In this document: positions 6,405-8,682 of the stretch, in pieces
Layout of the letters: the number at the start of each line of letters is the position of its first letter
How positions within the stretch are numbered: position 1 is the stretch's first letter
Source: Brevundimonas basaltis
Lineage (GTDB): Bacteria; Pseudomonadota; Alphaproteobacteria; Caulobacterales; Caulobacteraceae
Length of the DNA: 64,000 nt
Reading direction: 5' to 3'
Assembly (NCBI RefSeq): GCF_014202075.1
Contig: NZ_JACHFZ010000001.1
Location: 62,001 to 126,000, forward strand
Translations under genes and position numbers: made by a program
Notes under the pieces: model-generated
The model's input: the letters and a program-made list of their open reading frames with translations, nothing else
What the model was told of the DNA's origin: nothing
Database searches by the model: none

Positions 6405-8240
6405 TCAGGAAAAGGCGCGGAGGCGGTCGAGGAGGGGCTGGAGGCCGGGGATCAGGGGCTCGATCTCGGCGGCGTTCTTCTTCCACTTGCCGGCCTTGGG
6501 CGGGGTCAGGGTGTGGCGCGACGGGGGCAGGTCGCCGCCGGTGCGCTCCGTCAGGGCCGCGTCGAATTCCAGATCGGCGAAGCCGCAGACGGCGCGGATG
6601 ACGGCGGCGGGATCGGCGAGGAAGTCGCTGTAGCGGACGACGTGGCGGCGGTCGGCGGGGAGCTGCTCCAGATCGTCCATGATGGTCTGGTTGGTGGTCG
6701 CCCACTGATAGGCGGCGATCTCGGGCAGGGGCCTGCCCTTCAGGTCTTGCCAGCCGGGCGGCAGCAGCAGGGACCAGGGGCCGTCCCATCCGGGCAGCTG
6801 GGGATAGGTGACCCAGCCACCGGCGCGCCAGGCGTCGATGATGCTGGAGATGTTCTCCTCCGGTTCGCGCCACAGGAAGACGAAGCGGGCGTCGGGGAAC
6901 AGGGCGTTGAAGAAGGGGATGCGCAGGGCGTTCTTGGGCGTCTTCTCCAGCAGGCGGACGCTGTCGGCGTCGGCGGGGGCGCCGGCGGCGCCGACCAGTT
7001 TCCCGGCCAGACGGGACTTCATGGCCAGGGCGATCTCGGGCGTCAGTTTGTCGGCGGTCAGCCGGTTGGAGTCCACGCCGGGCGCGCCGGGCAGGAACAT
7101 GCGGAAGCCCTCGACCAGCCAGTGAGCCTCGCCGCCGGGATTGTGCAGCTGGGGCGTGACCGCGAGGGTCTCGAACAGGGCGGTGCTGCCCGAGCGGGGC
7201 GCGGCGACGATGATCACCGGGCGGTCGTAGTCGGGGGTGCGGACCACGGGGCGGGCGGCGGGCGCGGGGGCGGTGGAGGGTGCGCCGCCGACCGCGCCGA
7301 CTTCGGGATTGACGGCGTAGGTGCCGATGCGCTGGCCGATGACGCGCAGCACCGGCATCTGGTTGGAGCGCACGCGCAATTCGTCGCCGAGAGCGTTGAC
7401 CTGCTGCAGCAGCATATCCAGCCGCTTGCGGTAGTGGGGCACGCCGCGGTCGGTGTCGGCGAACAGGGACCACAGCTGGCGCCAGTCCTGACGGAAGCCG
7501 TAGACGACCCGCTCATAGGTCTGCATCTGCTCGCGCCCGGCGTCGCCGGCCTTGAGCGAAATCGTCTCCTCGACGAGATCGCGCAGCAGGTCGTCGACCT
7601 CGGACGGCGGCATGACGCGGTAGATGTTGTGCTGTTCGGTGGCGATGCCGACGCGGGCGCCGGGCTGGTAGGGAATGGTCTGCGGCTCGATGGTCTGCGT
7701 CGCGGCGGCGTGGGCCATGTCCCAGAAGCGGCTGTTGCCGGTGGTGTCGGCGACGAGGTGGATGCGCTCGATGTCGGAGTTGTTCTCGACCTTGTGGGTG
7801 CGCCAGTTGTCGAAGATCCACGACTCGCCCTGGGCCATGTGCACGACCTGGTCGCCGCAGAAGAATTTGACATCGGGGGTGGTCACGATGGGGACATGCA
7901 TCCGCACCCGGTGGAACCAGTGGTAGTTGATGTCGGTGTGCAGCGGCACGGTCGCGCCGGGCCCAAGCTTCATCAGGCGGGAGCGGCTCCAGACCACGCC
8001 GAAATGGGCCAGCACCTGCTGCAGATAGGGCGAGGCCTTGAGGTGCGGCGTCATGGCCATGGCCCCGGCCACGTCATCGTTCTCGCCGCCGCCGACGGTG
8101 ATCAGGCGCAGGGCGCTGTTGCCGTCCAGATTGTTCGGGTGGCGCGCCCAGGCGTCGGCGGGCAGGGCCGCGACCTCTTCCTGCAGCCGGGCGGCGTCGA
8201 ACCGGAACGGCAGCTTGATGAAGGGGGCTTCGAGTTTCAT
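6405..8240 (-). CDS. Aspartyl/asparaginyl beta-hydroxylase-like and sulfotransferase fusion
   Basis: This 611-residue two-domain enzyme starts at the ATG at 8240; the frame extends upstream only by running through the DUF5990 gene. Residues about 1-165 form a 2-oxoglutarate/Fe(II) domain of the aspartyl/asparaginyl beta-hydroxylase type: VPLHTDINYHWFHRVRMHVP supplies His101 and Asp103, FDNWRTHKVENNSD supplies distal His149, and ERIHLVAD the Arg159 expected to hold 2-oxoglutarate. After a linker that includes an Ala/Pro-rich stretch near 315-335 comes a sulfotransferase: the PAPS 5'-phosphosulfate loop is IIVAAPRSGSTALFETL (about 343-359) and FVFLWREPEENISSI resembles the 3'-phosphate motif. 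It has no signal peptide, so it is cytoplasmic. It is last in an operon after a lipoprotein and DUF5990. The substrate is unknown; hydroxylation followed by O-sulfation of one product is an inference. Confidence 0.85.
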   Translation of the reverse strand: MKLEAPFIKLPFRFDAARLQEEVAALPADAWARHPNNLDGNSALRLITVGGGENDDVAGAMAMTPHLKASPYLQQVLAHFGVVWSRSRLMKLGPGATVPLHTDINYHWFHRVRMHVPIVTTPDVKFFCGDQVVHMAQGESWIFDNWRTHKVENNSDIERIHLVADTTGNSRFWDMAHAAATQTIEPQTIPYQPGARVGIATEQHNIYRVMPPSEVDDLLRDLVEETISLKAGDAGREQMQTYERVVYGFRQDWRQLWSLFADTDRGVPHYRKRLDMLLQQVNALGDELRVRSNQMPVLRVIGQRIGTYAVNPEVGAVGGAPSTAPAPAARPVVRTPDYDRPVIIVAAPRSGSTALFETLAVTPQLHNPGGEAHWLVEGFRMFLPGAPGVDSNRLTADKLTPEIALAMKSRLAGKLVGAAGAPADADSVRLLEKTPKNALRIPFFNALFPDARFVFLWREPEENISSIIDAWRAGGWVTYPQLPGWDGPWSLLLPPGWQDLKGRPLPEIAAYQWATTNQTIMDDLEQLPADRRHVVRYSDFLADPAAVIRAVCGFADLEFDAALTERTGGDLPPSRHTLTPPKAGKWKKNAAEIEPLIPGLQPLLDRLRAFS

Positions 8241-8271: not shown

Positions 8272-8682
8272 TCAAAGCGCGCGCCACGGGCGGAGCGGGT
8301 GAACGGTGGCGCAGGTCGGCGAGCCGTCGTGGCCGCGGCCCGGCAGGACGACCTCGAGCGTGCGGCCCGCGCGGGCCCGGTCGAGCAGCGGCGGCGGGAT
8401 GTCGTGAATGTCGATCTTGGCGCGACGGGACCAGCAGCTGGCGTGGTCACCGGCCGAGGTGCCGACGCGGATGTAGACGAAGCGGCGGGCGGGGCCCTCG
8501 CGTCGGACGAAGGGGCCGAGGACGCGGTTGTCGTCGGACAGGCGGATCGGGACGTCGAACGACAGGGCCGCGTCAGACGCGGTGACCGGTTCGAACGGCG
8601 CGTCGTCCTTCTGCAGACTGTAGCGCACGCCGGGGACCGGATCGGCGATGGTCAGGCGCAGGGTGATTGGGACATCGGTCAT
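8272..8682 (-). CDS. DUF5990-like protein
   Basis: This 136-residue soluble protein reads MTDVPITLRLTIADPVPGVRY, SLQKDDAPFEP, SFDVPIRLSDDNRVLGPFVRR, ARRFVYIRVGTSAGDHASCWSRRAKI. The order of LRL..DP..GV.Y.LQ, a short strand-rich middle, GPFV and RF.Y...G is what I know of the DUF5990 family, whose function is not known. It lies 31 bp upstream of the hydroxylase/sulfotransferase gene and 17 bp downstream of the lipoprotein at 8700-9506, all on the minus strand, so the three are probably co-transcribed. No signal peptide or membrane segment. Confidence 0.65.
   Translation of the reverse strand: MTDVPITLRLTIADPVPGVRYSLQKDDAPFEPVTASDAALSFDVPIRLSDDNRVLGPFVRREGPARRFVYIRVGTSAGDHASCWSRRAKIDIHDIPPPLLDRARAGRTLEVVLPGRGHDGSPTCATVHPLRPWRAL

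Follow-up and report, generated by a model that had tools for sequence, protein, structure and literature searches.

What would a bacterium gain from joining a hydroxylase to a sulfotransferase, and on what substrate would such a protein act? The window, i.e. the whole stretch of Brevundimonas basaltis DNA that was analysed (64,000 nucleotides), raises this question through one open reading frame. The preliminary description had placed this frame at 6405-8240, and these coordinates are exact; the ORF check adds that it lies on the minus strand, with its start at 8240 and its stop at 6405. A plus-strand reading of the same interval is a mirror frame only and was rejected. The frame and its parts are the following.

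6405..8240, minus strand: whole ORF of the hydroxylase-sulfotransferase fusion, 611 aa (ORF, Pfam, orthologues)
7296..8240, minus strand: hydroxylase module, residues 1-315 (PF05118, conserved residues, AlphaFold2 model, VIA-align)
7245..7295, minus strand: Ala/Pro-rich linker, residues 316-332, predicted disordered (pLDDT < 50; variable length in the alignment)
6405..7244, minus strand: sulfotransferase module, residues 333-611 (PF13469, conserved residues, TPST1 profile alignment, VIA-align)

That a single protein carries both activities, as had been proposed, is borne out by two Pfam domains that score well over their cut-offs and by the existence of full-length fused homologues. As these homologues (41-92% identity) occur in many species and dN/dS is low, a chance ORF or an assembly chimera could be ruled out. 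From its sequence and its model, the fusion protein is real, appears functional and is made of known parts; its substrate is what we infer below.

The N-terminal module matches the Pfam family Asp_Arg_Hydrox (PF05118) at residues 64-166 (E 1.7e-14, 54.4 bits vs a cut-off of 22.6). Its double-stranded beta-helix (DSBH) core, approximately residues 1-180, comprises H101, D103, H149, R159 and H161. The first four are found at the positions previously given for them and are invariant in 29 of the 29 relatives that bear a hydroxylase. Membership in PF05118 is borne out by the iron and 2-oxoglutarate (2OG) residues lying within the DSBH fold and with the model matching solved structures at Z 15-17. 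The core is followed by a helical extension (181-312), which remains with the hydroxylase when the latter occurs alone, the hydroxylase-only homologues in the alignment ending at about 313-330. VIA-align of the N-terminal part of the model gave Z 16.8 to 7v4m, 16.2 to 4p7w and about 15 (15.2) to AspH, and the best structural matches are small-molecule and amino-acid/peptidyl hydroxylases. The closest solved enzymes include the L-proline cis-4-hydroxylase 4p7w, the proline 3-hydroxylase 1e5r and the nucleoside-antibiotic beta-hydroxylase 7v4f/7v4m, which share with the window protein the DSBH over the whole core (Z 15-17), the HxD...H iron triad and an Arg ten residues past the second His. In contrast, these enzymes stand alone and act on free small molecules, whereas the window protein adds the helical extension and the sulfotransferase, and the identity is only 17-25%.

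The module had been described as of the Asp/Asn beta-hydroxylase type, which holds in the sense of Pfam membership and not in the sense of human AspH. Both proteins belong to the same Pfam family and have the same fold (Z about 15), and the spacing between the 2OG-binding Arg and the distal His is equal (Arg735/His725 in AspH, Arg159/His149 in the window protein). However, the iron site of human AspH comprises His679 and His725 only, without an acidic ligand (PMC6817910), whereas the window protein exhibits a full His-x-Asp...His triad, D103 being kept in 29 of 29 relatives. The window protein is thus a PF05118 member and no AspH, and a human-type AspH assignment was rejected. AspH also has an ER-membrane anchor and an N-terminal TPR domain, and the window protein has neither: Pfam gave no TPR match at residues 1-63, and the helices of the model are C-terminal to the core. 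A phage origin was rejected as well, with one phage match, to the hydroxylase domain only, and five distant hydroxylase-only matches in viral contigs.

The C-terminal module matches Sulfotransfer_3 (PF13469) at residues 341-473 and over a second stretch (E 1.6e-24, 87.8 bits vs a cut-off of 27). Its key residues are the PAPS motif PRSGST (348-353), Glu371, Lys433 (in EKTP), Arg458 and Ser466. R349, G351, K433, R458 and S466 are kept in all 23 sulfotransferase-bearing relatives, and every sulfotransferase row has Glu371; the one exception counted in its column is a residue misaligned in a row that has the hydroxylase only. In the profile search, the C-terminal half was closest to the CurM and Ols sulfotransferases (E 5e-19), followed by TPST1/2, and VIA-align gave Z 18.6 for TPST1/2, 18.3 for the CurM sulfotransferase and about 16 for heparan 3-O-sulfotransferases. 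The CurM and Ols domains (4gbm, 4gox), the best sequence match, share the PAPS fold and are likewise part of bigger fused proteins. Nevertheless, theirs are polyketide synthases with carrier and thioesterase domains, and Pfam detected no PKS domain in the window protein or its neighbours, so that an embedding of the CurM/Ols type does not apply. With TPST1/2, the best structural match, the PAPS-binding residues and Glu371 align, GGEAH lying opposite CGEETR in the TPST1 profile alignment; the partner of Glu371 is presumably the TPST catalytic Glu. TPST1 and TPST2 sulfate peptides and were solved with peptides, and the likeness to them is a fold match. They differ from the window protein in being eukaryotic Golgi enzymes with 15-17% identity and no fused hydroxylase.

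The AlphaFold2 model of the fusion protein, built from a 32-row alignment with two plasmid-collection rows left out, has a pLDDT of 90.1, and the linker (316-332) is the only stretch below 50. With a pTM of 0.55, the model does not fix how the two domains are placed relative to each other. The preliminary description had named loss of function of either domain on modelling as a possible refutation, and no such loss is seen in the sequence or the model. The N-terminus (MKLEAPFIKLPFRFDAARL) exhibits no signal peptide, which is consistent with a cytosolic site of the protein. Both 2-oxoglutarate and PAPS are found in the cytosol, and PAPS can be made in this organism since its genome encodes an APS kinase (705-aa frame).

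The fusion, full-length or cut by a contig end, was found in about 14 of 131 Brevundimonas genomes and the stand-alone hydroxylase half in about 10 others; no genome of the 131 has both types. In one genome, G143 (L128:9075-10925), the halves are separate adjacent ORFs (hydroxylase of 323 aa, sulfotransferase of 288 aa), and this split pair occupies the chromosomal slot of the Brevundimonas fusion. Among 398 Caulobacterales genomes, the fusion is also present in one other family (genus g19, at least 9 genomes) and in G376, from another genus of Caulobacteraceae, and stand-alone halves occur elsewhere. Outside Caulobacterales, it was found in the proteobacterium G450 and on a Diaphorobacter plasmid. 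An Asticcacaulis plasmid encodes a fusion with 49% identity to the window protein. In the trees of the two halves, fused and hydroxylase-only proteins are interleaved, which indicates repeated loss or gain of the sulfotransferase half. Against Brevundimonas orthologues, dN/dS is about 0.10-0.29 in the hydroxylase core and 0.14-0.33 in the sulfotransferase, so both halves are under purifying selection. On the Diaphorobacter plasmid (L047:9380-14987), the fusion and the neighbouring gene for an IPTL-CTERM surface protein are divergent, and the fusion also overlaps a gene of unknown function (TIGR03032/DUF4915). In Azospirillum lipoferum 4B (L048:6001-7782), a frame that carries a related hydroxylase domain (31%) bears the annotation EamA family transporter and may be a further fusion.

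In the window, and in most Brevundimonas orthologues, the fusion gene occupies a conserved slot between RNase R/NUDIX and pleD/divK-like genes. Two genes flank it directly.

8272..8682, minus strand: DUF5990 protein, directly upstream with a 31 bp gap (PF19452, E 7e-38)
window:5835-6404, plus strand: small lipoprotein-like gene (MKMLKLAVTAPVLALLAACA...), convergent, its stop abutting the stop of the fusion; no Pfam match

The DUF5990 gene is missing beside several Brevundimonas orthologues and lies on the other side in one. It is a frequent but inconstant neighbour and probably not a required partner, and it was rejected as a functional partner on its inconstant position in orthologous loci. 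The lipoprotein-like gene is kept beside the fusion in several, though not all, orthologous loci. The neighbour maps showed no sulfotransferase gene adjoining the window fusion. Besides the fusion, the genome encodes one Sulfotransfer_3 protein, of the TPR type, on the same contig at a distance of 748 kb (C1:816614); it has no adjoining receptor and was set aside. The only other PF05118 protein of the genome, also of the TPR type, is encoded on another contig. About 25 kb from the fusion, the window encodes a 1013-aa Oar-like outer-membrane receptor (window:32730-35771, plus strand), which adjoins genes for a LacI regulator and a glycoside hydrolase, with no modifying enzymes alongside.

A search for other such fusions and their genomic context, as had been suggested, was carried out; fusions recur, and relatives are found in operons of TonB-dependent receptors (TBDRs). 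In Caulobacter-like and Brevundimonas genomes, the order is TBDR, Sulfotransfer_2, PF05118 hydroxylase, TPR/Sulfotransfer_3 and, last, a stand-alone hydroxylase half with 46-47% identity to the window protein. The enzyme genes overlap by 4 bp and follow the receptor gene, which belongs to the TIGR01782 family, after 46-70 bp. In Asticcacaulis (pASDW145_1), a fused protein replaces the hydroxylase half as the last gene. These operons thus end in a homologue of the window protein, fused or reduced to its hydroxylase half, whereas the window gene stands alone in its slot without a receptor. The linkage of receptor and cassette is tight: among the 398 Caulobacterales genomes, the nine with the cassette hydroxylase half are exactly the nine with the receptor at ≥70% identity, and the cassette genes lie directly downstream of 9/9 receptor orthologues vs 0/15 paralogues (38-49% identity). 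Fisher tests gave 1.6e-18 and 7.6e-7, values that overstate independence, as the genomes are related. Other arrangements occur as well. The fused gene of g19 and a TPR-sulfotransferase gene overlap, and a TBDR then follows in L098 and L100. The order is TBDR, TPR/sulfotransferase, hydroxylase half in L112, and hydroxylase half, TBDR, two TPR/sulfotransferases, ST2, hydroxylase in L116. In L117-L121, the hydroxylase and sulfotransferase halves belong to one operon. In the G018 operon, the TPR-sulfotransferase is split into two ORFs of 370 and 268 aa (L041:9116-11040), possibly through a frameshift or a sequencing error. The Asticcacaulis cassette (L046:2851-15476) lies amid phosphonate-degradation genes (the FAD oxidoreductase TIGR03364, phnX) and a phosphodiesterase, and near several further cassettes there are again genes like phnX, GntR or phosphodiesterase genes, a hint at a phosphonate or phosphodiester as receptor ligand.

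Three Caulobacterales genomes of other families carry a divergent second SecB within such a cassette.

L117:8905-9405: cassette SecB gene
L118:10530-10979: cassette SecB gene
L119:8930-9445: cassette SecB gene

The cassette reads TPR/sulfotransferase, hydroxylase, SecB and a stand-alone sulfotransferase that is a homologue of the C-terminal half of the window protein. A TBDR gene lies just upstream in L117 and L119, and L118 reaches a contig end. A second SecB copy was found in exactly these three of the 12 genomes examined. The cassette SecBs are 68-69% alike mutually vs 28-40% to the housekeeping SecBs, and they occur only in operons with stand-alone halves, none with a fusion.

Taken with the domain assignments, this context suggests a mechanism to which we give an even chance: the fusion would be a cytosolic bifunctional enzyme that hydroxylates and then O-sulfates, the substrate likely being a protein bound for export. 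The N-terminal Fe(II)/2-oxoglutarate module would hydroxylate an amino-acid side chain, and the tethered C-terminal module would transfer the sulfate of PAPS to a hydroxyl, most simply the newly made one, with a linker flexible enough for the two active sites to reach the same segment. The substrate would be kept unfolded in the cytosol ahead of Sec translocation. For the relatives, the best candidate target would be the TBDR of their own operon; the window copy would act on an unlinked receptor or on another exported protein. Enzyme activity, reaction order, acceptor residue and target are thus put forward as a proposal, beside the domains, the fusion, the PAPS supply and the linkage of homologues, which were observed. 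Hydroxylation followed by O-sulfation of one substrate, as the preliminary description had it, is plausible, as the halves are recurrently linked, whether fused, adjacent (G143/L128) or co-operonic (L117-L121), which provides Rosetta-stone support for linked activities; the order and the common substrate are the parts that we infer. SecB, the TPR-bearing partners and the TPST-like fold together make a polypeptide the best guess for the substrate. The linkage of homologues to a receptor, a TPR-sulfotransferase and a second SecB likewise favours an exported protein, e.g. a TBDR, over a lipid or a free amino acid.

A broader and more tentative proposal covers the TBDRs of Caulobacterales and of Proteobacteria beyond this order: before such a receptor is exported from the cytosol, the enzymes of its own operon would hydroxylate and O-sulfate its side chains, and in some lineages a dedicated SecB would present it in unfolded form. 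The window protein would then be a one-chain version of the two chemical steps for an unlinked exported protein. Several observations count against a receptor as the target. The neighbour maps showed no receptor beside the window gene or any of its Brevundimonas orthologues, so that the TBDR linkage of the homologues does not extend to the window gene, and the fused copies in G376, G450 and Diaphorobacter have no adjoining receptor either. Of the 13 TBDRs of the window genome, one (G000:C3:89997-92999) resembles a cassette receptor over its full length (34.5% over 93%) and was the sole receptor in the co-occurrence test; among the 131 genomes, its type is present in 2/15 Brevundimonas with the fusion vs 39/116 without. 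Its presence therefore does not track the fusion, and it was rejected as an obligatory partner. SecB does not accompany the fusion. When the receptors with a cassette were screened for an acceptor motif of their own, many residues specific to their clade and a short DGTGGxLQDIEN insertion emerged, none of them decisive. Furthermore, TBDRs are abundant in Caulobacterales, the co-occurrence figures include shared ancestry, and a receptor operon could equally serve to modify the ligand of the receptor.

The last point leads to the main rival, which we consider somewhat unlikely: a free amino acid or derived metabolite would be hydroxylated and sulfated, and would, in the case of the receptor operons, then be a ligand or signal that the receptor carries. 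It is the main rival since the nearest solved hydroxylases include enzymes for free proline (4p7w, 1e5r) and for a nucleoside antibiotic (7v4f/7v4m), and since operon receptors handle small ligands, as is certainly the case where the Asticcacaulis operon adjoins phosphonate-degradation genes. The CurM/Ols domains, nearest to the sulfotransferase in sequence, moreover act on carrier-bound polyketides. Nevertheless, genes for NRPS, PKS, carrier proteins or amino-acid biosynthesis do not recur alongside, the addition of a hydroxyl and a sulfate would be unexpected in a catabolic uptake cluster, and the dedicated SecB and TPR-bearing partner enzymes fit a polypeptide better.

The two domains could also have different substrates and be merely co-expressed or co-localised, the fusion being a neutral outcome of gene adjacency. 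The flexible linker and the repeated loss or gain of the sulfotransferase half, with fused and hydroxylase-only proteins interleaved in the hydroxylase tree, agree with this. However, both halves are under purifying selection, the fusion persists among proteins only ~40% alike, and split halves usually stay co-operonic with further sulfotransferases and hydroxylases, which makes separate substrates improbable. A lipid, which had also been mentioned, is disfavoured too. The acyl chain of an ornithine lipid or of lipid A would be 2-hydroxylated in the manner of OlsC or LpxO, both PF05118 members, and the new hydroxyl would then be sulfated. The NCBIfam similarity to these enzymes is weak and sub-threshold (LpxO, E 0.0056, 15.8 bits vs an equivalog cut-off of 500; OlsC, E 0.13, 11.4 bits vs 450), and an LpxO/OlsC assignment was rejected. 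No lipid genes recur around the gene, neither the sequence nor the model exhibits a transmembrane segment or an amphipathic anchor, and the context of the relatives points to exported proteins, which together make a lipid substrate improbable.

Each domain is known already, and what is new is the company of the fused family, namely the receptor cassettes and the cassette SecB. In open-access full text, we found neither fusions of this kind nor TBDR cassettes with sulfotransferase/hydroxylase genes described, and subscription journals may hold such a paper. To our knowledge, few cases of protein sulfation are known in bacteria, and even fewer of outer-membrane receptors that are modified after translation. 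Two generic domain annotations thereby become a testable system, in which hydroxylation and sulfation are coupled and the homologues are tied to a single receptor family and sometimes also to a second SecB. Receptor orthologues with the cassette and paralogues without it offer a ready-made comparison. Receptor modification, if proven, would be more than a variant of known parts. If the substrate is a small molecule, the fusion would still be a compact route to sulfated hydroxy-amino acids, which the preliminary description regarded as little known in Caulobacterales.

The cassettes may not be restricted to these two activities. At L121:8638-16072, a hydroxylase-sulfotransferase pair lies beside a TBDR and a gene that, by eye, resembles a tryptophan halogenase, which suggests that modifying enzymes of several kinds may be found in cassettes linked to TBDRs.
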